Position numbers and translations under genes: made by a program. From Alphaproteobacteria bacterium (lineage in GTDB: Bacteria; Pseudomonadota; Alphaproteobacteria; ATCC43930; Allostellaceae), in assembly GCA_020852355.1 (NCBI GenBank), contig JADZBA010000162.1:1-33928 (forward strand): 33,928 nt of DNA, in the 5' to 3' direction. Every line of letters begins with the position of its first letter. Positions within the stretch are counted from its first letter, which is position 1. Positions 21,080 through 33,479 of this stretch are shown one piece after another. The notes beneath the pieces are model-generated. The model was given only the letters and a program-made list of their open reading frames with translations. It had not been told where the DNA came from and made no database searches.

Positions 21080-21910
21080 TCAGCACACGGCGCGATGGCG
21101 CTCCTTGCAGATCGCGACCACCTCGTCGGGGTCGCGCTTCCACCAGTTGCCGGCGGAGAAGATCTCGACCTCGTGCAGGCCGGTGTAGCCGGCCGCCTCG
21201 ACCAGCCCGCGGATCGCCCTTATGTCGATGACCCCGTCGCCCATCATGCCGCGGTCGAGCAGCAGGTCGGTGGTCGGCACCAGCCAGTCGCAGATGTGGA
21301 AGGCGAGGATCCGCTCCGCGCCGGCGCGCGCGATCGCCCGGGCGAGGTTCGGGTCCCACCAGGTGTGGTAGACGTCGACCGCCACGCCGACGCCGGGACC
21401 CAGCGCGTCGCAGAGATCGAGCGCCTGGTCGAGCGTGTTCACGCAGGCGCGGTCGGCGGCGTACATCGGGTGCAGCGGCTCGATCGCCAGCGCCACGCCG
21501 GCGGCGCGCGCGTCGGGCAGGATCGCGGCGATGCCGTCGCCGACCATCGCCCGCGCGCCGGCGATGTCCCTCGATCCGGCGGGCAGCCCGCCCGCCACCA
21601 GCACCAGGCAGCGCGCGCCCAGCACCGCCGCCTCCTCGATCGCCCGGCGGTTGTCGGCGATGGCGGCCGCGCGGCCGGCCGCGTCGGACGCGGGGAACAG
21701 GCCGCCGCGGCACAGACCGGTGACCGCGAGCCCGGCGTCGCGGATGCGCCGTGCCGCCTCGCCGAGGCCGAGCTCGGCGACCTTGTCGCGCCACGGCGAG
21801 ATGCCGCCGAGGCCGTGGCGGGCGCAGCCCTCGATCGCCTGGGCGAGCGTCCAGCGCTCGCGCACGGTCGCGGTGTTGAGCGACAGGCGGGACGTCTCGG
21901 GGACGGCCAT
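21080..21910 (-). CDS. Sugar phosphate isomerase/epimerase family protein (AP endonuclease 2-like TIM barrel)
   Basis: This 276-residue TIM-barrel protein belongs to the xylose isomerase-like family. Probable metal ligands are the Glu in ALAIEPLHP, the Asp in VAVDVYHTWWD, the His in LAFHICDW and the Glu in GLHEVEIFS. These four are the usual Glu-Asp-His-Glu site. The start ATG overlaps the stop of the DUF993 gene (TGATG), so it is translationally coupled. It is the last gene of the six-gene leftward operon. The family isomerises or epimerises keto-sugars and related polyols, and some members lyse 3-keto-glycosides. The operon context points to a sugar-like or cyclitol-like intermediate, but this is an inference. 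Confidence 0.88.
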   Translation of the reverse strand: MAVPETSRLSLNTATVRERWTLAQAIEGCARHGLGGISPWRDKVAELGLGEAARRIRDAGLAVTGLCRGGLFPASDAAGRAAAIADNRRAIEEAAVLGARCLVLVAGGLPAGSRDIAGARAMVGDGIAAILPDARAAGVALAIEPLHPMYAADRACVNTLDQALDLCDALGPGVGVAVDVYHTWWDPNLARAIARAGAERILAFHICDWLVPTTDLLLDRGMMGDGVIDIRAIRGLVEAAGYTGLHEVEIFSAGNWWKRDPDEVVAICKERHRAVC

Positions 21911-23073
21911 CACGCGATCCCGTGCACCGCCATCACCTTGCGCATGCGGTCGGCCGCGACCTCGGGGTCGCGCAGCAGGCCGGCCTTGTCGGCGAGGCGG
22001 AACAGCTCGGCCAGATGGCCGATCGAGCGCGCGCTCTGCTGCCCGCCGACCATGGTGAAATGGTCCTGCAGCCCGTTCAGCCAGGCCATGAACACCACGC
22101 CCGTCTTGTAGAAGCGGGTCGGCGCCTTGAAGATGTGGCGCGACAGGGGCACGGTCGGCGCGAGGATGTCGTGGAAGTCCTGCCGCCGGTCGGCGGCGAG
22201 CGCGGCCAGCGCGGCAGAGGCGGCCGGTGCGATCGCGTCGAAGATGCCGAGCAACGCGTCGGAATGGCCCTCGCCGTCGCCGTCGATCAGCTCCGCGTAG
22301 TTGAAGTCGTCGCCCGTGTACATGCGCACGCCGGCCGGCAGGCGGCGGCGCATGGCGATCTCCTTGTCCTTGTCGAGCAGCGAAATCTTGATGCCGTCGA
22401 TCCTGGCGGCGCAGTCGCGCAGGATCGCCAGGCAAACCTCCATGCCCCGGTAGTGGTCCTCGTGGCCCCAGTAGCCCCTGAGCGCCGGGTCGAACATCTC
22501 GCCCAGCCAGTGGATGATCACCGGCTCGCGGACCTGGCGCAGCACCCGGGCGTAGACCCGGTGGTAGTCGTCGGGCGAGCGCGCCGCCGCCGCCAGCGCG
22601 CGGCTGGCCATCAGGATGATGCGGCCGCCGGCCGCCTCGACCGCGCCGACCTGCTCCTCGTAGGCGGCGATGACGTCGTCGATCCCGACGCCCGGACCCG
22701 GCATCAGATGGTCGGTGCCGGCGCCGCAGAACAGCACGGCGCCGGGCCGCCCCGAGGCCGCCTCGACCGAGCGGCGGATCAGCTCGAGCGAGGTCTTCCA
22801 GTCCAGCCCCATGCCGCGCTGGGCGGTGTCCATCGCCTCGGCGACGCCGAGGCCGAGGTCGAACAGGCGCGAGCGGAAGGCCAGCGTGCGGTCCCAGTCG
22901 ATCGCCGTGTCGACCCAGGGATCGTGCTCGGCGCGCGGATCGGCGACGACGTGGGCGGCCGCCAGCGCCACGCGGTTGAAGGGCACGTTGCTGCGTTCGG
23001 GGAAGCGCCGCGGCGCGCCCGTGGTGTAGCGGGCGAGGCGGCCATCGGCGGTCGGAAGGTCGAGGGTCGGCAT
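21910..23073 (-). CDS. DUF993 family protein (dihydrodipicolinate-synthase/aldolase-like barrel)
   Basis: This 387-residue protein carries the DUF993 signature blocks: an N-terminal FPERSNVPFNRVALAAAHVVADP, a central PVIIHWLGEMFDPALRGYWG and a barrel strand DGIKISLLDKDKE, whose Lys may correspond to the Schiff-base lysine of class I aldolases. FNYAELIDGDGEGHSDALLGIFD follows. The family is assigned to the class I aldolase/DHDPS-like superfamily. As far as I know its reaction is not established. It begins 23 bases after the oxidoreductase gene with a GGAGGT site and is coupled to the isomerase gene. Retro-aldol cleavage of a keto-acid or keto-sugar made by its neighbours is a reasonable guess. 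Confidence 0.85.
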   Translation of the reverse strand: MPTLDLPTADGRLARYTTGAPRRFPERSNVPFNRVALAAAHVVADPRAEHDPWVDTAIDWDRTLAFRSRLFDLGLGVAEAMDTAQRGMGLDWKTSLELIRRSVEAASGRPGAVLFCGAGTDHLMPGPGVGIDDVIAAYEEQVGAVEAAGGRIILMASRALAAAARSPDDYHRVYARVLRQVREPVIIHWLGEMFDPALRGYWGHEDHYRGMEVCLAILRDCAARIDGIKISLLDKDKEIAMRRRLPAGVRMYTGDDFNYAELIDGDGEGHSDALLGIFDAIAPAASAALAALAADRRQDFHDILAPTVPLSRHIFKAPTRFYKTGVVFMAWLNGLQDHFTMVGGQQSARSIGHLAELFRLADKAGLLRDPEVAADRMRKVMAVHGIA

Positions 23074-23096: not shown

Positions 23097-24242
23097 CTAC
23101 AGCGCCGGCACGTCGATCCAGCGGCGCTCCCGCCAGCTCTCATGGCCGAGCATGGCGAGCTGCACGCCCTTGGCGCCGGCCTTCAGGTCCCAGGGGAACG
23201 GCGTGCCGTCGTAGAGGTGGCGGATGAACAGCTCCCACTCGACCTTGAACGCGTTGTCGTAGGCGATGTTGTCCGGCACCTCCTGCCAGGTCCGGTAGAA
23301 GTCGATCGCCTGCGGCACGTCCGGGTTCCACACCGGCTTGGGCGTGGCGATCCGCGCCTGGCTGTGGCAGCGCTGCAGGCCGGCGACCGCCGAGCCGAGC
23401 GTGCCGTCGACATGGAAGGTGACGAGGTCGTCGCGGCGCACGCGTGTCGCCCACGAGCTGTTGATCTGCACCACCACGCCGTCGCCGGCGACGAAGGTCG
23501 CGTAGGCCGCGTCGTCGACGTCGCAGTCGTAGGGCCGCCCGTCCTCGTCCCAGCGCCGGGGGATGTGGGTGGCGCCGAGGCACGACACGCTCTTCACCTC
23601 GCCGAACAGGTTGTCGACGACGTAGCGCCAGTGGCAGAGCATGTCGAGGATGATGCCGCCGCCGTCCGCCTTGCGGTAGTTCCAGGACGGGCGCTGGGCC
23701 GGCTGCCAGTCGCCCTCGAACACCCAGTAGCCGAACTCGCCGCGCACCGAGAGGATGCGGCCGAAGAAGCCGCTGTCGATCAGCATCTTCAGCTTGCGCA
23801 GGCCGGGCAGCCACAGCTTGTCCTGGACGACGCCGTGGCGGATGCCGGCCGCCTCGGCGCGCCGCCACAGGTCGACGGCGTCCGCCAGCGAGTCCGCGGT
23901 CGGCTTCTCGCAGTAGACATCCTTGCCGGCCGCGATCGCCTTGCGCACGAGATCGGCGCGCATGTTGGTCGAGGCCGCATCGAAGAAGAGCGTGTCCTCC
24001 CGGTTCGCGATGGCGGCGTCGATGTCGGTCGTCCAGCGCGCGACGCCGTGCGCCCTGGCCAGCGCCTCGACCTTGGCGGCGTTGCGGCCGACCAGGATCG
24101 GGTCGGGCATCACCCGGCTGCCGTCGGCCAGCGCCACGCCGCCCTGGGCGCGGATCGCCAGGATGGAGCGCACGAGGTGCTGGTTGGTCCCCATGCGTCC
24201 GGTGACGCCGTTCATGATGATGCCGAGGCGCTTGGTCGCCAT
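23097..24242 (-). CDS. Gfo/Idh/MocA family NAD(P)-dependent oxidoreductase
   Basis: This is a 381-residue two-domain dehydrogenase. The N-terminal Rossmann fold has [15 protein letters not shown], a form unlike the common GxGxxG and closer to a dihydrodipicolinate-reductase start. The catalytic EKP motif is in [14 protein letters not shown]. The C-terminal domain has the [23 protein letters not shown] signature, with the Asp and His expected near the substrate. [11 protein letters not shown] replaces the more usual ATPNxxH segment. It follows the ABC ATPase gene by 3 bases. The family oxidises sugars, inositols or their glycosides at a hydroxyl group; the substrate is unknown here. Confidence 0.9.
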
Positions 24243-24245
24243 GCG

Positions 24246-25010
24246 CTACTCCATGCCCAGGAGATGGTAGATCCGCCGCGAGTAGTCCCCGAATGCGGCC
24301 GTCGTCTTCATGTCCAGCGTGCGCGGGTAGGGCAGCTCGATGCGGATATGGTCGGCCATGCGCGCCGGGCCGGCGGTCAGCACCACCGTGCGGGTGGCCA
24401 GGAACACCGCCTCGGCGATGCCGTGGGTGACGAAGAGGATCGTCTTGCGGCTCTCGCGCCAGATGCGCAGCAGCTCCAGGTTCATCTTCTCGCGGGTCAG
24501 CGCGTCGAGCGCGCCGAACGGCTCGTCCATCAGCACCAGCTTGGGGTCGTGGACGAGGGCGCGGGCGATCGCCGTGCGCTGCTGCATGCCGCCCGACAGC
24601 TCGTAGGGGTACTTGTCCTCGGCCCCGGCCAGCCCGACCATGGCCAGGAGGTCGCGGGCGCGCTCGCGGCTGGCCTTCGCGGGCAGGCCGAGAATCTCGG
24701 CCGGCAGCATGACGTTGTCGAGGATGCGCCGCCATTTCAGCAGCAGCGCCTGCTGGAAGACCATGCCGATGTCGCGCGACGGATCGAACGGGTTGGCCTG
24801 GTTGCCGATCCGGACCGAGCCGCCGTCGTGCGGGTGCAGGCCGGCCAGGATCTTCAGCAGCGTCGACTTCCCGCAGCCCGACGGGCCGACCATGGTGACG
24901 AGCTCGCCCGCCTCGACGTCGAAGGTCACCTCGGATACCGCCAGGAACTCCTGCCCGCGCGTGCGGTAGACCTTGCGCACGCCCTGGAGGCGGATGAAGG
25001 GCTCGGTCAT
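24246..25010 (-). CDS. ABC transporter ATPase (nitrate/sulfonate/taurine type)
   Basis: This 254-residue ATPase belongs to the SsuB/TauB/ThiZ-like family. Walker A GPSGCGKST, Q-loop MVFQQALLLKWRRILDNVMLPAEILG, signature LSGGMQQRTAIARAL and Walker B LVLMDEPFGALDALTREKMN are complete. The LSGGMQQR and FGALDALTR forms are characteristic of this subfamily. It lies 10 bases downstream of its permease gene. The operon holds no binding-protein gene. The NMT1/THI5-like receptor at 29796, linked by a shared operator-like sequence, is the best candidate partner. Confidence 0.93.
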   Translation of the reverse strand: MTEPFIRLQGVRKVYRTRGQEFLAVSEVTFDVEAGELVTMVGPSGCGKSTLLKILAGLHPHDGGSVRIGNQANPFDPSRDIGMVFQQALLLKWRRILDNVMLPAEILGLPAKASRERARDLLAMVGLAGAEDKYPYELSGGMQQRTAIARALVHDPKLVLMDEPFGALDALTREKMNLELLRIWRESRKTILFVTHGIAEAVFLATRTVVLTAGPARMADHIRIELPYPRTLDMKTTAAFGDYSRRIYHLLGME

Positions 25011-25020
25011 GCGGGCGGGG

Positions 25021-25785
25021 TCAGGAGACGCGGGCGTCGCGCACGACGACCAGCCGCTCCAGCACGATCACCAGGGCGTAGAGCAGCACGCCGAGCAGGC
25101 TGATCAGGATGACCGCCATGAACATCGCCGCGGTGTCGAGCGTCACCTGCACCTGCAGCATGAGGTAGCCCAGGCCCTTGTCGGAGCCCAGGAACTCGCC
25201 GACGATGGCGCCGGCGACCGCCAGGATCGCCGCCACCTTCATGCCCGAGAAGATGTAGGGGAGCGCACCCGGAAGCTGGATCTTCACGAAGATCTGCCAC
25301 TTCGAGCCGCGCAGCGAGCGCACGAGATCGAGCAGGTCCGGCTCGACCTCGCGCAGGCCGCGCGCCGTCGTCAGCACGATCGGGAAGAAGGCGATGGAGA
25401 AGGCGATCAGCGCGTTGGGCAGCAGGCCGTAGCTGAACCACACGATGAACAGCGGCCCGAGCGCCACCTTCGGGATCATGTTGAAGCTGACCAGCACCGG
25501 CATGAAGGCGGCGTCGAGCCAGCGCGACCAGGTGAAGACGAGCGCCGCCAGCACGCCGCCGCCGACCGCCAGCAGGTAGCCGCCGTAGATCTCGGCCGCG
25601 GTGACGAGGATGTTGTCCCACCAGCGGTACTCCGGCTGGATCAGCGCCAGCACGGTGTCCCACGGCGTCGGCATCACGAACTTCGGCACGTTGCCGAGCG
25701 TCGTGAACAGATGCCAGGCGAGGATGACCGCGACGTGCGCCAACGTCGCGAGCCCGATCCGCCACGCGCTTTCCCCCGCCGTCAT
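25021..25785 (-). CDS. ABC transporter permease (nitrate/sulfonate/taurine type)
   Basis: This is a 254-residue integral membrane protein of the SsuC/TauC-like family with six predicted segments. The cytoplasmic EAA-type loop is LDLVRSLRGSKWQIFVKIQLPGALPYIFSGMKVAAILAVAGAIVGEFLGSDKGLGYL, whose GA.VGEFLGS.KGLGYL ending is typical. It begins 34 bases after the PhyH gene. With the ATPase at 24246 it forms an importer that lacks a receptor within the operon. Confidence 0.92.
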   Translation of the reverse strand: MTAGESAWRIGLATLAHVAVILAWHLFTTLGNVPKFVMPTPWDTVLALIQPEYRWWDNILVTAAEIYGGYLLAVGGGVLAALVFTWSRWLDAAFMPVLVSFNMIPKVALGPLFIVWFSYGLLPNALIAFSIAFFPIVLTTARGLREVEPDLLDLVRSLRGSKWQIFVKIQLPGALPYIFSGMKVAAILAVAGAIVGEFLGSDKGLGYLMLQVQVTLDTAAMFMAVILISLLGVLLYALVIVLERLVVVRDARVS

Positions 25786-25819: not shown

Positions 25820-26563
25820 TCAGCTCACGCGCAGGAACGCCGCCTCGTCGTAGGGCAGGGCGGCGTTCGTGAAGGCGTTTCCGTCGCCAACATAGTGGAA
25901 GGCGACGGCGCGGCGCCACCGGGTCGAGCGGTTGGCGCCCGACTGGTGCAGCGTGCCGCCGTGATGGAACGACACGCCGCCCTTGGGCACCGGTGCCGGC
26001 GTCATCTCGATGCCCCGGGCGATCTCCGCGGGGACCTGCAGGTTGAACGGCTCGTCGGGCGGTGCGGCGTGGGGCAGCAGCGGCCGCCGGTGGCTGCCGT
26101 GGCCGAAGGCGAGGCAGCCATTGTCGACGGTGGCCGTGTCGAGCGCGACCCAGGCGGTGACGAGGCGCTCAGGGTCGTCGGGGCCGAAGTAGACGTTGTC
26201 CTGGTGCATGGGCTTCGGCCCACCGCCCTCGGGCGGCTTGAAGAATATCTGGCTGAAGGAGAGGGTGACGCCGGGGCCGATGATCTCCTCGACCAGGCTC
26301 ACGAGGCGAGGGTCGGTCGCGAGCGCGCGGAAGACCGGCCGCGCGGCGTGCGGGTTGTCGAGCTTGCGCAGCACGGTGCGCGCGGTGACGCCGCCGTCGA
26401 CGTACCAGCGCCGCTGCTCGGGGGCGAGGTGGGCGAGGAAGGTCTCGCCCCACGCCTCGGCGTCGGCGATGGCGGCGTCCATCTCGGCCGCGGTGAACAC
26501 GGCAGGCACGGTCAGGTGACCGGCGGCGGCGTAGAACCGCCGCTCGACCTCGGCCAGGCCCAT
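25820..26563 (-). CDS. Phytanoyl-CoA dioxygenase (PhyH) family Fe(II)/2-oxoglutarate oxygenase
   Basis: This 247-residue oxygenase has a double-stranded beta-helix iron site H120-x-D122 (KPMHQDNVYFG) and the distal H206 in HHGGTLHQSGANRS, followed by an Arg-rich 2-oxoglutarate-binding strand. LDTATVDNGCLAFGHGSHR is the typical PhyH central motif. The ATG at 26563 is preceded by a GGAGGAAA site. It is the first gene of the six-gene operon, immediately behind an operator-like inverted repeat (26579-26594). Bacterial PhyH proteins hydroxylate many non-CoA substrates, so it probably starts breakdown of the imported compound by hydroxylation. Confidence 0.9.
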   Translation of the reverse strand: MGLAEVERRFYAAAGHLTVPAVFTAAEMDAAIADAEAWGETFLAHLAPEQRRWYVDGGVTARTVLRKLDNPHAARPVFRALATDPRLVSLVEEIIGPGVTLSFSQIFFKPPEGGGPKPMHQDNVYFGPDDPERLVTAWVALDTATVDNGCLAFGHGSHRRPLLPHAAPPDEPFNLQVPAEIARGIEMTPAPVPKGGVSFHHGGTLHQSGANRSTRWRRAVAFHYVGDGNAFTNAALPYDEAAFLRVS

Positions 26564-26578: not shown

Positions 26579-26594
26579 GTAACTATGTGGTTAC
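26579..26594. promoter_or_regulatory. GTAAC-N6-GTTAC operator, copy 1 (PhyH operon promoter)
   Basis: GTAAC (26579-26583) and GTTAC (26590-26594) are perfect inverted arms around TATGTG; with flanking A and T the arms extend to AGTAAC/GTTACT. The site sits 16 bases upstream of the PhyH start codon and overlaps the predicted -10/transcription start of that operon. The same arms and spacing occur at 29702-29717 beside the TetR gene. In this GC-rich DNA, that repetition strongly suggests the TetR operator. Confidence 0.72.
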
Positions 26595-26622
26595 TTAATG
26601 GCGAGGGCCGCACACCTGTCAA
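26594..26622 (-). promoter_or_regulatory. Promoter candidate for the PhyH-ABC operon
   Basis: A perfect -35 hexamer TTGACA lies on the minus strand at 26622-26617. With a 17-18 base spacer, the -10 falls on ATTAAG or TTAAGT (26599-26593), a weak match in an AT-rich patch. Transcription would start inside the operator at about 26587, which suits repression by steric block. Confidence 0.5.
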
Positions 26623-26691
26623 GCCGGCGGCTTTCGCCGCGCACCGCGAGCGGCTACCTTCCGCCGCCGCCGCCGCTGTCGGAGTGATCCC

Positions 26692-28281
26692 ATGACGACC
26701 ACCGCCACCCTCGCGCTGGAAGGCCGCATCGACCGGCTGGCCGCCGCCGTGGCGCGGCCCGATGGGCCCGGCTGCGCCCTGGGCATCGCCCGTGGCGGCG
26801 AGGTGCTGCTGCGCAAGGGGTACGGCCTGGCCAGCGTCGAGCACGGCGTGGCGATCGGTCCGGGCACCGTCTTCCGCATCGCCTCGGTGACCAAGCAGTT
26901 CACCTGCGCCGCCGTCCTGATGCTGGTGCTGGAGGGCCGCCTCGGCCTCGACGACGAGGTGCGCACGCACCTCTCCTGGCTGCCCGACTACGGCACGCCG
27001 GTGACGCTGCGCCATCTCCTGCACAACGTCAGCGGCCTGCGCGATTTCCTGGAGCTGACGCGCTGGGGCGGCATGAGCCTCGACCGGCCGGTGGGCGAGG
27101 ACGATCTCGTCGCCGCGATCGGCCGGGCCGGCGGCCTGAACTTCGCGCCGGGCAGCCGCTTCCTCTACAGCAACACCAACTTCCTGCTGCTCGGCCGCAT
27201 CGTCGAGCGGATCGAGGGCATGCCGCTGGAGAGCGTCCTGGAGCGCCGCTTCTTCGCGCCGCTCGGCATGGCGGCGACCCTGCTGGTGCGCGATCCGGCG
27301 ACCGTCGTGCCGCGGCTGGCGACGGCGTACCTGCGCCAGCCCGACGGGACGGTGGTGCGGGCGCACCAGGCCTATCCGACGGTGGGCGAGGGCGGCATGG
27401 TCTCGACGGTCGACGACCTGCTGCGCTGGGCGCGCCATTTCGACCGGCCCTTCGTCGGCGGCGGCCACCTCGTCACGGCGCTGCAGGTCGAGCTGGCACT
27501 GACCGGCGGCGCCGCGCAGCCCTATGCGCGCGGGCTGGAGGTCGGACGCTGGCGCGGCCTGCGCACCGTCGGCCATGGCGGGTTGTGGCCGGGCTACCGC
27601 ACGGAGCTCCTGCTGGTGCCCGAGCGCGATCTCGCCGTCGTCGCGATCGCCAATGTCGACGCGATCGATCCCCACCGGCTGGCGCGCCGCGCGGTCGACG
27701 CCGCGCTGGCCGAGGAAGGGCTGCCGGCCGAGCCCGCGCTGCCGGGCTGGGTCGCCGGCCACGCCGGGCGCTGGGTCGACTCCGAGGAGCTGGCCGTGCT
27801 CGACCTGGCCGTCGCCGGCGGCGAGGCGACGGGGCGGATGAACGGCGCCGGCTTCGGCTTCCTGCCGGCCGCCGACGGCTGGCTGCGCGCCTTTCGCGGC
27901 GCCTTCGAGCTGGCGGTGCGCGCCGACGGCGACGGGCTGCTCGCCGACACGGGCGCCGGCCGCACGGTGCGCATGGCGCGGGTCGTCCCCGTCGCGCCGC
28001 CGGCGGGCCTCGCCGGCACCTACCATGCGGCGGAGCTCGACACGACCTGGACGGTGGCGCCGCATGGCGACGGCCTGGCCGTGCGGGCGCGCGGGCCGCT
28101 CGCCGCCGCGGGTCCCTGGCCGGTCACGCCGGTCGCAGCCGACGTCGTCGAGATCGTCATGCCCAACCGCTGGCTGACCGCGACCGTCGTCGCCCATGTC
28201 CTGCGCGGCGCCGGCGGCATCACCGGGCTGCGCGTCTCCAGCGGCCGCATCAAGAACCTGCGCTTCGCGCGCACGGCGTAG
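26692..28281 (+). CDS. Serine beta-lactamase-like hydrolase, D-aminopeptidase (DAP) type
   Basis: This 529-residue protein has a class C beta-lactamase/DD-peptidase-fold domain at residues 10-330. Its catalytic S65-V-T-K68, Y159-S-N161 and H295-G-G motifs are intact. About 200 further residues contain beta-rich modules (LDLAVAGGEATGRMNGAGFGF; TWTVAPHGDGLAVRARG). Length, motif positions and two-part C-terminus resemble the Ochrobactrum D-stereospecific aminopeptidase (about 520 residues; Ser62, Tyr153, His287), which releases D-amino acids from peptide N-termini. No signal peptide is seen, so it is cytoplasmic. It diverges from the PhyH operon across 128 bases holding an operator-like site, and is 2 bases from the MBL gene. 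Confidence 0.82.
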   Translation: MTTTATLALEGRIDRLAAAVARPDGPGCALGIARGGEVLLRKGYGLASVEHGVAIGPGTVFRIASVTKQFTCAAVLMLVLEGRLGLDDEVRTHLSWLPDYGTPVTLRHLLHNVSGLRDFLELTRWGGMSLDRPVGEDDLVAAIGRAGGLNFAPGSRFLYSNTNFLLLGRIVERIEGMPLESVLERRFFAPLGMAATLLVRDPATVVPRLATAYLRQPDGTVVRAHQAYPTVGEGGMVSTVDDLLRWARHFDRPFVGGGHLVTALQVELALTGGAAQPYARGLEVGRWRGLRTVGHGGLWPGYRTELLLVPERDLAVVAIANVDAIDPHRLARRAVDAALAEEGLPAEPALPGWVAGHAGRWVDSEELAVLDLAVAGGEATGRMNGAGFGFLPAADGWLRAFRGAFELAVRADGDGLLADTGAGRTVRMARVVPVAPPAGLAGTYHAAELDTTWTVAPHGDGLAVRARGPLAAAGPWPVTPVAADVVEIVMPNRWLTATVVAHVLRGAGGITGLRVSSGRIKNLRFARTA

Positions 28282-28283
28282 CG

Positions 28284-29021
28284 ATGGTGCGCCTGCGCTT
28301 CCTCGGCTGCGGCGACGCCTTCGGCTCGGGCGGGCGGTTCCAGACCTGCTTTCTGGTGGCCTCTCCCTCGGCGACCTTCCTCGTCGACTGCGGCGCCTCC
28401 TCGATGATCGCCATGCGCCGCTTCGCGGTCGATCCCAACGCCGTCGACGCGGTGTTCGTGACGCATCTCCACGGCGACCATTTCGGCGGCCTGCCCTTCC
28501 TGCTGCTCGACGCCCAGCTCGTCAGCCGGCGGACGCGGCCGCTCGTACTGGCCGGCCCGCCCGGCCTCGGCCAGCGCCTCAGCGAGGCGATGGAGGTGAT
28601 GTTCCCGGGGTCGTCCACCGTGCGCCGCTCCTTCCCGGTCGAGATCGTCGAGCTGCCGGCGCGCGTCGCCACGACGGTCGGCGCCGTGACGGTGACGCCG
28701 TTCGAGATGGTGCACTGGTGCGGGGCGCCGCCCTACGCGCTGCGCCTGGAGGTCGACGGCAAGGTGCTCGCCTACACCGGCGACACGGAATGGGTCGACG
28801 CCATTGTGTCGGCCGCCCGCGGCGCCGATCTCTTCGTGGCCGAGGCCTACTTCCACGACAAGCGGATGAAGTACCACCTGGACTGGGCGACGCTGGCCGC
28901 GCACCTGCCCGAGATCGCCGCCCGGCGCGTGGTGCTGACCCATCTCTCGGCGGACATGCTGGGCCGCCCGCCGCCATCGGGCGTCGAGGTCGCCGAGGAC
29001 GGCCGGGAGATCGCGCTGTAG
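28284..29021 (+). CDS. MBL-fold metallo-hydrolase (RNase Z-like subgroup)
   Basis: This 245-residue metallo-beta-lactamase-fold protein begins with VRLRFLGCGDAFGSGGR, typical of the RNase Z/arylsulfatase-like branch. It has the zinc motif THLHGDHFGG, then YTGDTEW (the bridging Asp), FVAEAYFHD and the C-terminal VLTHLSADM His. It lacks the exosite arm of tRNase Z, so a small-molecule esterase, lactonase or phosphodiesterase role is likelier than tRNA processing. It starts 2 bases after the D-aminopeptidase-type gene and is certainly co-transcribed with it. Its end converges on the TetR gene 7 bases away. Confidence 0.88.
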   Translation: MVRLRFLGCGDAFGSGGRFQTCFLVASPSATFLVDCGASSMIAMRRFAVDPNAVDAVFVTHLHGDHFGGLPFLLLDAQLVSRRTRPLVLAGPPGLGQRLSEAMEVMFPGSSTVRRSFPVEIVELPARVATTVGAVTVTPFEMVHWCGAPPYALRLEVDGKVLAYTGDTEWVDAIVSAARGADLFVAEAYFHDKRMKYHLDWATLAAHLPEIAARRVVLTHLSADMLGRPPPSGVEVAEDGREIAL

Positions 29022-29028
29022 CGTCCGG

Positions 29029-29685
29029 TCACGGCCGCAGGAAGCGCAGCACCACGTCGACGTTCTGGGCCGAGCGCGCCGCCGTCGCCGCCGGGTCGGC
29101 GAGGTCGCGCCCGAACACCACCGACAGCGTGTGGATGTTCGAGAAGTAGAAGTAACCGAGTGCCGCGATGGTGATGTAGAGGTCGAGCGGGTCGACGCCG
29201 CGGCGAAACGTGCCGTCGGCGGCGCCGCGCTCCAGCAGCCGGCCGATCGTGTCGATGACCGGCAGGTTGACCGCCCGGACCTTGCCCGAGCGGGCGAGGT
29301 GCCGGGCGCGGTGCAGGTTCTCGTTGGCCAGCAGATGGATGAAGCCGGGATTGTCGCGGCAGAAGGCGAAGTTGTAGGCGACCAGCCGGGCGATTCCTTC
29401 GGCCGGCGGGCAGTCCTCGACGGCCAGCGCCCGCTCGTGGCCGCGGATGCGGTCGTAGGCCTGCTCCAGCACCGCGAGGTAGAGCCCGGCCTTGCTGCCG
29501 AAATAGTGGTAGATCATGCGCTTGTTGGTCGCCGCCCGGGCGGCCACCGCGTCGACTCGCGCGCCGCCCAGCCCCTTGGCCGAGAACTCCGTCCAGGCCG
29601 CCTCCAGCAGCCGGGCGCGGGTCTCCTCCGGGCGCCGCGCGCGCGGCGCCGGCGGCCGGCGGCGTCGATTGACAGGGGGCGACAC
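29029..29685 (-). CDS. TetR-family transcriptional regulator
   Basis: The helix-turn-helix is near the N-terminus: EETRARLLEAAWTEFSAKG, then GGARVDAVAARAATNKRMIYHYFGSKAGLYLAVLEQAY, with YHYFGSK typical of the family. The GTG start at 29685 gives 218 residues, a normal TetR length. An in-frame ATG at 29772 would add 29 residues encoded by DNA that contains the operator-like repeat at 29702-29717, so I prefer the later start, though its ribosome-binding site is weak. It diverges from the NMT1/THI5-like receptor gene. Autoregulation and control of the receptor and the PhyH operon are inferred from the shared inverted repeat. Confidence 0.87.
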   Translation of the reverse strand: MSPPVNRRRRPPAPRARRPEETRARLLEAAWTEFSAKGLGGARVDAVAARAATNKRMIYHYFGSKAGLYLAVLEQAYDRIRGHERALAVEDCPPAEGIARLVAYNFAFCRDNPGFIHLLANENLHRARHLARSGKVRAVNLPVIDTIGRLLERGAADGTFRRGVDPLDLYITIAALGYFYFSNIHTLSVVFGRDLADPAATAARSAQNVDVVLRFLRP

Positions 29686-29701
29686 GCGCGAATACCGTCC
29701 G

Positions 29702-29717
29702 GTAACCAACCGGTTAC
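29702..29717. promoter_or_regulatory. GTAAC-N6-GTTAC operator, copy 2 (TetR/receptor divergent promoter)
   Basis: GTAACC-AACC-GGTTAC is a perfect 16-base palindrome centred 94 bases before the receptor start and 17 bases before the preferred TetR start. It shares both GTAAC/GTTAC arms and the exact six-base spacing with 26579-26594; the merged consensus is GTAAC(C/T)-N4-GGTTAC. Position beside a divergent TetR gene is the classical arrangement for autoregulation. Confidence 0.75.
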
Positions 29718-29795: not shown

Positions 29796-30806
29796 ATGCG
29801 GATCGTGATGGGTGCCGCGGCCGCGGCGGTCGCGCTGGCCGGGTTCGCCGCGCCGGCGGGCGCGCAGAAGCTGGAGAAGATCGAGCTCTTCCTCAACTGG
29901 GTGCCGGGCGGCGACCACGCGCCCTACTATTATGCCCGGAAGATGAAGCGCTACGAGGCGGTGGGGATCGACCTCGACATCCAGCCCGGCAAGGGCTCGG
30001 CCGTCGCCATCCAGCGCGCCGCCGCCGGCGCCAGCCAGCTCGGCCTCGCCGACATGGGTGCGGCGCTGATCGCCCGCGGCAAGGGGGCCGAGACGGTGGC
30101 GGTGATGAACGTCTACGCCAACTCGCCGCAGGGCCTCTATTGGCTGAAGAGCTCAGGCATCAGGTCGGCCAAGGATCTCGCCGGCAAGAAGATCGGCAAC
30201 CCGCCGGGCGATGCCGCGCGCGTCGTCTTCCCGGCGCTGGCCAAGGCGGTCGGCATCGACCCGGCCAGCGTCACCTGGGTCAACATCGACGCCAACGCCA
30301 AGCTCGCCGCACTGAAGTCGAAGGCGATCGACGCGACGACGTCGTTCTACAACATCCACCACATCTTCCAGCGCGAGCTGGGCGACGACATGGGCTTCCT
30401 GCCGTGGCGCGAGGCCGGCGTGAACCCCTACGGCAACTCGATCCTGGCGAACGCCAGGTTCTTCGCCGAGAAGAAGCCGCTGGTCGCCGCCTTCACGAAG
30501 GTCACCCAGAAGGCCTTCGCCGACTGCGTCGCCGACCCCAGGCCCTGCGTCGAGGCGCTGGTCGAGGCCAACGGCGCCCTCAAGCTCGACAACGAGATGG
30601 TGAACTGGAGCCTGGTGACCGTCCTGATGAGCGACGAGATCTCGCGCTCCGTGGCGCTCGGCTGGCACGACGACAAGCGCATGGCCGCCGACTACGAGCT
30701 GGCGGCGACCTACTTCAAGCTCGACCAGGCCTTCGACGTGAAGACCGTCTACACCAACGAGTTCCTCGACAAGTCGATCAAGATGACCCAGCCGAAGACG
30801 AACTGA
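29796..30806 (+). CDS. ABC transporter substrate-binding protein, NMT1/THI5-like
   Basis: This 336-residue periplasmic receptor has a signal peptide ending APAGAQ at about residue 24. The mature start IELFLNWVPGGDHAPYYYARKMKRYEAVGIDLDIQPGKGSAVAIQRAAAG is characteristic of the NMT1/THI5-like group, which binds pyrimidine and thiamin precursors and many other small molecules. KDLAGKKIGNPPGDAARVVFP is the second-lobe motif. A strong GGGAGGT site precedes the ATG. No permease or ATPase gene is adjacent, and the receptor-less ATPase/permease pair at 24246-25785 is of the matching type. A REP-like palindrome follows the gene and may end or protect its transcript. Confidence 0.92.
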   Translation: MRIVMGAAAAAVALAGFAAPAGAQKLEKIELFLNWVPGGDHAPYYYARKMKRYEAVGIDLDIQPGKGSAVAIQRAAAGASQLGLADMGAALIARGKGAETVAVMNVYANSPQGLYWLKSSGIRSAKDLAGKKIGNPPGDAARVVFPALAKAVGIDPASVTWVNIDANAKLAALKSKAIDATTSFYNIHHIFQRELGDDMGFLPWREAGVNPYGNSILANARFFAEKKPLVAAFTKVTQKAFADCVADPRPCVEALVEANGALKLDNEMVNWSLVTVLMSDEISRSVALGWHDDKRMAADYELAATYFKLDQAFDVKTVYTNEFLDKSIKMTQPKTN

Positions 30807-31008: not shown

Positions 31009-32580
31009 ATGAACGAGCCACGAGAGCCGCACACGCCGGCCGCCGCCGCACAGGTGGGCATGACGATCGCGGTGCATGCCGCCACGGCACCGGACCGGAT
31101 GGCGATCGATGGGCCGCTCGGGCGCCGGACCTTCGGCGAGCTGAACGCGGCCTGCAACCGGCTCGCGCGGTTCCTCAGGAGCCGCGGCCTCGGGGCCGGC
31201 GACTCGGTCGCCATGCTGGTGCCGAACCGGCCGGAGTTCGTCGAGGTCGTCTATGCCGGCCTGCGCGCCGGCATCCGCGTGACGCCGCTCAACTGGCACC
31301 TCGTGCCGGAGGAGGCGGCCTATGTCGTGCGCGACTGCGAGGCCAAGGCGCTCATCGCCGACACGCGCTTCGCCGCCACCGCGCGCATCGTCGCCGATAC
31401 GCTGCCGCTCGCCACGCGGCTCTGCGTGGGCGGCGCCATCCCCGGCTTCGATTCCTATGACGACGCATTGGCGGGACAGGCCGCGCGCGATCTCGACGAC
31501 CCCGTCCTCGGCTCCTCGATGCTCTACACCTCGGGCACCACTGGCCGGCCCAAGGGCGTCTATCGGCTGAACGCGCCGCTCGACCTGCTGGCGGCGATCG
31601 TCGGCTCGGCCGCGCTCGAGCCGGGAGTCGACCTCGCGCTCAATACCGGGCCGCTCTACCACGCGGCGCCGCTGCGGCTGAACCTGCAGCTCTTCCTCAA
31701 CAACGGCGTCGGCGTCCACCTCATGGACCGCTGGACGCCGGAGGAGACGCTGGCCCTCATCGAGCGCCTCGGCGTCACCCACACCCACATGGTCCCGACC
31801 ATGTTCCACCGTCTGCTCGCGTTGCCGGAGGCCGAGCGCGCGCGCTATGCCCTGGGCTCGTTGCGCTGGGTGCTGCACGGGGCGGCACCCTGCTCGGTCG
31901 CGCTCAAGCGGCGGATGATCGAGTGGCTGGGACCGGTGCTCTACGAGTACTACGCGGGCACCGAGGGCGGCGGCACGTTCATCGCGTCCTCCGAGTGGCT
32001 GGCGCGGCCCGGCAGCATCGGACGGCCGGCGCCGGGCTGCCGCATCGAGGTGCGGGACGATGCCGGCGCCCCGCTGCCGGCCGGCGCATCGGGGCGCGTC
32101 TTCGTCCACACTCCGGCGGCGTACCGCTTCGAGTACTTCAAGGACCCGGCGAAGACGGCCGCCGCCTGGGACGGCGACTGGTTCACCATGGGCGACATCG
32201 GCTACGTCGACGCCGAAGGCTATTTCTACCTCTCGGGACGCAGCGCCGAGACGATCATCTCGGGCGGCGTCAACATCTACCCCGCCGAGATAGACGCGGT
32301 GCTGCACCAGCACCCCGCCGTCGACGACGTCGCCACGGTCGGCGCACCCAACGAGGAGTGGGGCGAGGAGGTGGTGGCGGTGGTGCAGCCGGCCGCCGGC
32401 CACGCCCCGTCCGCCGCGCTGGCGGAAGATATCCGCGCCTTCTGCCGCGGCCGCATCGCCGACTTCAAGGTGCCGCGCCGCATCGACTTCGTGGCGGCGC
32501 TGCCGCGCCTGGAGACCGGCAAGATCCAGCGCCGCCTCGTGCGCGACCGCTACTGGCAGGGCCACGCCCGCCAGATCTGA
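31009..32580 (+). CDS. AMP-forming acyl-CoA synthetase
   Basis: This 523-residue member of the ANL superfamily activates a carboxylic acid to its CoA thioester with ATP, in the cytoplasm. The AMP-binding P-loop-like motif YTSGTTGRPKGV, the A5 motif YEYYAGTEGGG, the A7 region FTMGDIGYVDAEGYFYLSGR and the C-terminal catalytic lysine in LETGKIQRR are all present. SGGVNIYPAEID marks the acyl-CoA synthetase branch rather than adenylation domains. It starts after GGGAGG. It lies 26 bases upstream of the PEP-mutase-family gene, so they form a two-gene operon. The acid it activates cannot be predicted; medium-chain or aromatic acids are typical for relatives. Confidence 0.92.
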   Translation: MNEPREPHTPAAAAQVGMTIAVHAATAPDRMAIDGPLGRRTFGELNAACNRLARFLRSRGLGAGDSVAMLVPNRPEFVEVVYAGLRAGIRVTPLNWHLVPEEAAYVVRDCEAKALIADTRFAATARIVADTLPLATRLCVGGAIPGFDSYDDALAGQAARDLDDPVLGSSMLYTSGTTGRPKGVYRLNAPLDLLAAIVGSAALEPGVDLALNTGPLYHAAPLRLNLQLFLNNGVGVHLMDRWTPEETLALIERLGVTHTHMVPTMFHRLLALPEAERARYALGSLRWVLHGAAPCSVALKRRMIEWLGPVLYEYYAGTEGGGTFIASSEWLARPGSIGRPAPGCRIEVRDDAGAPLPAGASGRVFVHTPAAYRFEYFKDPAKTAAAWDGDWFTMGDIGYVDAEGYFYLSGRSAETIISGGVNIYPAEIDAVLHQHPAVDDVATVGAPNEEWGEEVVAVVQPAAGHAPSAALAEDIRAFCRGRIADFKVPRRIDFVAALPRLETGKIQRRLVRDRYWQGHARQI

Positions 32581-32606
32581 ATTCCTCCGGAAGGGAAGCA
32601 TCGGGA

Positions 32607-33479
32607 ATGTCGAAGCGCGCCACCTTTCGCGCCAAGCTGCAGCAGAAGCCGCTGACCGCCATCATCGGCGCGCACAACCCGCTGGGCGCGCGGCTCGCCG
32701 AGGAGGCGGGCTTCGACGGCATCTGGGCGAGCGGCTTCGAGCTCTCGGCCTCCATGGCGGTGCCCGACGCCAGCATCCTCACCATGACGCAGCATCTCGA
32801 GATGACGCGCGCCATGGATGCCGCCATCGCCATCCCGGTGGTGGCCGACATCGACACCGGCTTCGGCAACGCCACCAACGTCATCCACGCGGTCCGCCAG
32901 TACGAGGCGGCGGGCGTCGCCGCACTGGTGATCGAGGACAAGACCTTCCCCAAGGACACCAGCCTGCTCGCCGGCGGCCGGCAGGAGCTCGTGCGGATCG
33001 CCGAGTTCGAGGGCAAGCTCGCCGCCGCGGTGGCGACGCGGCGCGACCCAGACCTGCTCGTCGTCGCCCGCACCGAGGCGCTGATCGCCGGCCTCGGCCA
33101 GGAGGAGGCGCTCGCCCGCGCACGGGCCTACGAGAAGGCCGGCGCGGACGCCATCCTGATCCATTCCAAGCGCAAGACGCCGGACGAGATCGTCGCCTTC
33201 GTCGAGGCGTGGGACGGCGCCATCCCGCTCGTCCTGGTGCCGACCGCCTATCCCGACCTGACGGAGGCGCGCATCCGCGATCTCGGCAAGGTCCGGCTCG
33301 TCATCTACGGCAACCATGGCGTCCGCGCCGTCGCCCAGGCGCTGGCCGACACCTTCCGCCGCATTCGCGCCGACGGCGGCGTGCTGGGCGTCGAGAAGGC
33401 CATCGCGCCGACCGAGCGCGTGTTCGCGCTGCAGGGGGTCGAGCAGATGAAGCGCGAGGAGGAGAAGTTCCTGCGGTGA
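32607..33479 (+). CDS. pphA: Probable phosphonopyruvate hydrolase (PEP mutase/isocitrate lyase superfamily)
   Basis: This 290-residue TIM-barrel enzyme has the Mg-binding region ADIDTGFGNATNV (residues 80-92) and a gating loop E110-D-K-T-F-P-K-D-T118-S119. PEP mutases have EDKxFPKxNS with Asn at the position occupied here by Thr118. Thr at this place is the feature reported for phosphonopyruvate hydrolase of Variovorax sp. Pal2, which cleaves the C-P bond to pyruvate and phosphate. GRQELVRI, ARTEALIAGLGQ, ILIHSKRKTPDEI and IYGNHGVRA also agree with that enzyme as I remember it. No transaminase or phosphonate transporter is nearby. An oxaloacetate- or dimethylmalate-acting relative is the alternative, but the EDK..PK loop argues against it. 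Confidence 0.8.
   Translation: MSKRATFRAKLQQKPLTAIIGAHNPLGARLAEEAGFDGIWASGFELSASMAVPDASILTMTQHLEMTRAMDAAIAIPVVADIDTGFGNATNVIHAVRQYEAAGVAALVIEDKTFPKDTSLLAGGRQELVRIAEFEGKLAAAVATRRDPDLLVVARTEALIAGLGQEEALARARAYEKAGADAILIHSKRKTPDEIVAFVEAWDGAIPLVLVPTAYPDLTEARIRDLGKVRLVIYGNHGVRAVAQALADTFRRIRADGGVLGVEKAIAPTERVFALQGVEQMKREEEKFLR

Follow-up and report, generated by a model that had tools for sequence, protein, structure and literature searches.

A putative TetR regulon links a separately encoded NMT1-type receptor to an ABC transporter and DUF993 operon in Stella

Regulators of the TetR family typically sit as dimers on promoters and are released by a ligand of the pathway they control. The named member to which the regulator described here bears most resemblance is RutR, the TetR-family regulator of pyrimidine use in Escherichia coli, which recognizes a TTGACC-type box. 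RutR is the best-scoring named regulator for our TetR protein, both by NCBIfam profile and among its PDB matches (4x1e, 3loc), and both regulators sit with uptake and catabolic genes. As RutR proper, the protein falls well below the cut-offs, with 59.4 bits against 368 for TIGR03613 and 46.3 against 230 for PRK15008. On the side of transport, importers of the SsuABC, TauABC and NMT1 type have the same composition as the system considered here, that is an NMT1 receptor, one BPD_transp_1 permease and one TauB-like ATPase. Finally, DUF993 clusters of Proteobacteria, to which PDB entries 4dnh and 3oqb belong, contain the same core of Gfo, DUF993 and isomerase genes.

In the window, the whole 33,928-nucleotide stretch of DNA analysed here, the minus strand carries an operon that begins with a PhyH-family gene (2-oxoglutarate/Fe dioxygenase-like; 25820-26563; PF05721, 1.7e-32). 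It continues with an SsuC/TauC/NtrB-like ABC permease of the BPD_transp_1 family (25021-25785; PF00528, 7e-31), a TauB/SsuB-like ABC ATPase (24246-25010; PF00005), a Gfo/Idh/MocA oxidoreductase (23097-24242; PDB 3oqb, an unnamed oxidoreductase, 1e-175), a DUF993 protein (21910-23073; PF06187, 7e-186; PDB 4dnh, uncharacterized) and a xylose-isomerase-like TIM barrel of the AP_endonuc_2 family (sugar phosphate isomerase/epimerase; 21080-21913; PF01261, 1.2e-39). The plus strand then holds a beta-lactamase/D-aminopeptidase-like gene (bla; 26692-28281), assigned by a profile match and seen at this place only in Stella, and an MBL-fold hydrolase gene (28284-29021), its family read from sequence alone. 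Next come a TetR gene on the minus strand (29029-29685), with recognition helix NKRMIYHYFG and with TetR_N (PF00440) and TetR_C_29 (PF17938) domains above cut-offs, and an NMT1/THI5-type periplasmic receptor gene on the plus strand (29796-30806; PF09084, 7e-41), a relative of PDB 3ix1. The gene content is as proposed by the first-pass annotation, including the operon with permease and ATPase and the receptor encoded apart from it. Receptor, permease and ATPase are of matching type (NMT1, BPD_transp_1 and TauB-like, respectively), and none of the three scores above the cut-off of an NCBIfam equivalog model, the permease being subthreshold.

A pattern scan of the window finds GTAAC-N6-GTTAC at 26579-26594 (GTAACTATGTGGTTAC, operator 1), some 16 bases ahead of the PhyH start codon (ATG), and at 29702-29717 (GTAACCAACCGGTTAC, operator 2), in the divergent gap between the TetR and receptor genes. 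Both sites lie where they had been reported, and no third copy is found in the window, as had been noted, even when one mismatch is tolerated. The listed TetR reading frame (GTG 29772) overruns the site at 29702, and a start at GTG 29685, which we adopted, leaves operator 2 intergenic. The pair had been called unlikely by chance. This holds for the window, in which 0.03 copies are expected and two copies were reached in 0 of 100 shuffles, but a plain estimate from composition (about 70% GC, 5.7 Mb) predicts about one exact copy per genome. The rarity of the motif is therefore modest, and the weight rests on placement and conservation. A search of the entire 5.74-Mb genome returns only these two copies, so that the motif is not scattered at unrelated loci, and the reversed-pattern control returns 0 copies in the same genome. 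The looser core TAACY-N4-RGTTA matches three to four times per Stella genome, yet only the two operators are at shared places. Although the expectation of one copy per genome would allow for chance palindromes, this explanation is negligible for two copies that both lie at promoters and that four genomes and many relatives share at orthologous places.

The three congeners, other genomes of the family, encode proteins 71-92% identical to those of the window and carry exactly two operators each, at orthologous places: one just before PhyH and one in the gap that separates TetR from the NMT1-type receptor gene. They are G001, G002 (Stella sp. ATCC 35155; AP019701.1) and G003; for the genus, the replacement name Allostella is given as proposed in 2025 (PMC12488387). 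What differs is the interval between TetR and PhyH. It contains bla and MBL in the window, bla without MBL in G001, and bla with a truncated MBL in G002 (L019, 10903-11178). In G003 it contains bla and MBL together with an AraC-type regulator, an O-methyltransferase-like gene and a FecA/FecR/FecI-like set, names that were read by eye from translations; this extra block (L020, 6943-12766) sits between bla and the PhyH operon. Thus, insertions at this spot vary from genome to genome while both operators stay put, and MBL, truncated in one congener and absent from another, is dispensable in the genus. On the far side of the receptor, the window encodes an AMP-binding acyl-CoA ligase and an isocitrate-lyase/PEP-mutase-like protein (31009-33479), a pair that also lies beyond the receptor in G002 and G003 and that is not found within 3.4 kb past the receptor in G001.

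The sequences around the operators suggest what the sites could do. On the minus strand, TTGACA (26617-26622), the likely -35 box of the PhyH operon promoter, is separated by 17 bases from ATTAAG (26599-26594), the likely -10 box, whose last base is the first base of operator 1. The earlier statement that the operator overlaps this promoter can be kept with an adjustment, as the operator abuts the -10 box and overlap starts at its last base. Alignment of upstream regions (footprinting) shows TTGAC kept on the PhyH side in six genomes (the four Stella genomes, Desertibaculum [L037, with L136 as an identical locus] and SI072_bin164 [L035]), with 16-17 bases between it and an (A/C)TTAAG/GATAAG-like box touching the operator. 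On the receptor side, TTGACA (29669-29674, plus strand) is the likely -35 box of the receptor promoter, with operator 2 just beyond the expected -10 region; it is present in the window, G001, G002 and L035, G003 lying outside the aligned stretch. A TTGAC box is conserved 16-18 bases upstream at both sites. A strict sigma-70 consensus scan found no promoter, and the -10 boxes are poor. From the conservation of the boxes we infer two promoters, 3.1 kb apart, at which each operator would cover the expected transcription start.

It is possible that TetR is an activator, or that it regulates only its own gene and the PhyH-side site is a relic. This seems very improbable, since operator 1 abuts the -10 box, which is a repressor position, and since it is conserved over several families, standing directly before Gfo in many relatives. 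Operator 1 could also, or even primarily, control the divergent bla/MBL pair, which would then be part of the regulon. The site does reside in the divergent gap between PhyH and bla; in the window, 97 bases separate it from the bla ATG. However, it is on the PhyH promoter side of that gap, relatives without any bla have it in front of PhyH, TctC or Gfo, and in G003 the Fec/AraC-like block leaves about 6 kb between bla and the operator, making control of bla unlikely.

Relatives outside Stella clarify how the receptor belongs to the operon. DUF993 is widespread, and in all non-Stella genomes retrieved (17 of 17) no more than 10 kb separates a receptor orthologue (48-70% identity) from the genes for the same permease and ATPase, which lends comparative support to the proposal that these components form a single transporter. 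In two loci (L140 and L141), permease, ATPase and receptor genes are consecutive in one run, which is good evidence for one transporter. Desertibaculum and other relatives have the receptor gene divergent from TetR, followed by PhyH, permease, ATPase, Gfo, DUF993 and isomerase genes, with the operator at both places; in L037, L035, L143 and L149, which share this order as far as DUF993, operators flank TetR on both sides without bla or MBL. Since TetR stands between receptor and permease in most relatives, the split appears to be ancestral and to predate Stella. The first-pass annotation had attributed it to insertion or rearrangement of the bla/MBL pair. That pair is indeed a Stella-specific insertion, but it merely widened an existing gap: on the gene orders compared, TetR probably already lay between receptor and permease before Stella, and the bla/MBL insertion came later. 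In a separate locus (L151, G000:C382, 3898-5652), the same genome has a receptor paralogue (54%) with a PhyH paralogue (53%) immediately after it, and no permease, TetR or operator is found on that 9-kb contig. This adjacency suggests that receptor and PhyH act on one compound.

The association of the operator with TetR extends further. Across 84 loci that surround DUF993 orthologues, we count the palindrome 46 times, compared with a mean of 1.6 over all half-site permutations (the motif's own 46 included) and 11 for the next highest, and most orthologous operons have the motif in their upstream region. The first-pass annotation had named its absence there, like its scatter at unrelated loci, as grounds for rejection, and neither is seen. 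The consensus is (A)GTAACY-N4-RGTTAC(T), mostly immediately upstream of presumed targets. TetR proteins with recognition helix NKR..Y[HAQE], Stella included, accompany the exact site in 43 of 46 cases and the core in all 46, and those with other helix classes never accompany the exact site (0/36): it is lacking with NKR..YYY (0/9, six of them with TTAAC or another outer-base variant), with NKRMLYYHV, mainly from Bradyrhizobium (0/21), and with NKQ or NRR types (0/6). Bradyrhizobium-type clusters keep TetR, and neither the exact operator nor the looser core is found in them; the Bradyrhizobium and Tardiphaga loci L056-L110 have helix NKRMLYYHV and no GTAAC palindrome. Clusters of these two genera probably use another operator. 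Because the TetR tree contains only about three changes of helix class, the association of helix with operator is not statistically independent, and we take it as consistent with TetR binding rather than as independent statistical proof. Two loci (L139 and L142) each contain two TetR paralogues, with YHYFG and YYYF helices, and nearby operators that differ in the outer base, offering a natural comparison with which to test helix/operator specificity.

A simple palindrome of this kind might be bound by a GntR-, LacI- or MarR-type regulator encoded elsewhere, with TetR a mere neighbor. The distance of about 16 kb between the operon and the TetR orthologue in G013 could be read in this sense. However, TetR is the regulator that accompanies site-bearing clusters, and the sites track its presence and helix class across several orders. 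Where the exact site occurs with no TetR in view (three loci), a TetR orthologue is encoded elsewhere in the genome, and the remaining TetR-less loci, including the receptor-bearing L140, L146, L147 and L152, are without the exact site. Another regulator is thus improbable.

The two palindromes are therefore very probably operators of the TetR protein encoded at 29029-29685, which would co-repress both promoters until a ligand binds. Comparative data largely uphold the first-pass reading of one transporter and pathway with a shared TetR and two operators. The protein combines a helix-turn-helix with a ligand domain, and the palindromes lie at predicted promoters, including the gap beside its own gene, and are conserved with it. 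Given the standard behavior of the family and the position of the sites, a repressor mechanism fits. In the mechanism we infer, GTAACY-N4-RGTTAC is occupied by a TetR dimer both where the PhyH-permease-ATPase-Gfo-DUF993-isomerase operon begins and in the TetR/receptor gap, and this would shut off both promoters and probably that of the TetR gene as well. A substrate or intermediate would then bind the TetR_C_29 domain, the dimer would leave the DNA, and receptor, importer and catabolic enzymes would be made together, the operon presumably degrading the imported compound.

The same core and operator come with an NMT1-type ABC transporter in Stella and Desertibaculum, with a TctC-type tripartite transporter in L040 and L052, and with an SBP_bac_1/8-type, sugar-like ABC transporter in L057 and other rhizobia, pointing to a shared core pathway with different entry routes. 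Enolase-like, DHDPS-like and extra Gfo genes vary among clusters. Plasmid records, consulted for annotation, mostly carried none at the matching position. In rhizobia, a second, ATAAC-type site upstream of TetR faces the divergent transporter, again a two-operator layout. It is likely that a TetR subfamily with operator GTAACY-N4-RGTTAC governs a DUF993/Gfo/isomerase pathway with swapped transporters (NMT1 ABC, tripartite TctC or sugar-type ABC) widely across Alphaproteobacteria and in a Marinobacterium, the outer base shifting with the helix. As to the substrate, the receptor is distantly like a formyl-aminopyrimidine binding protein and THI5 (PDB 3ix1, 4h6d), PhyH resembles many dioxygenases, and Gfo resembles sugar and inositol dehydrogenases. 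Since the named relatives of all three are distant, we assign no substrate. The TetR ligand and the pathway substrate could be found by screening for compounds that release TetR, and the operator offers an annotation handle for the pathway in many genomes, whatever the transporter.

A literature search on DUF993, on the operator half-site with TetR and on the gene set returned nothing relevant, and in the literature searched we found no earlier description of what appears to be a new regulon, though of a familiar kind. It gathers an orphan receptor, an orphan permease and ATPase, and DUF993, which has a structure (4dnh) and no function, into a single regulated unit whose operator is defined. 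Compared with RutR, the half-site is GTAAC instead of a TTGACC-type box, and the operon contains no rut genes. Unlike SsuABC, TauABC and other NMT1-type importers, the system has its receptor encoded apart, across TetR and bla/MBL. DUF993 clusters share the enzymatic core and differ in the transporter attached to it, be it an NMT1 ABC, a TctC-type tripartite or an SBP_bac_1/8-type ABC system.
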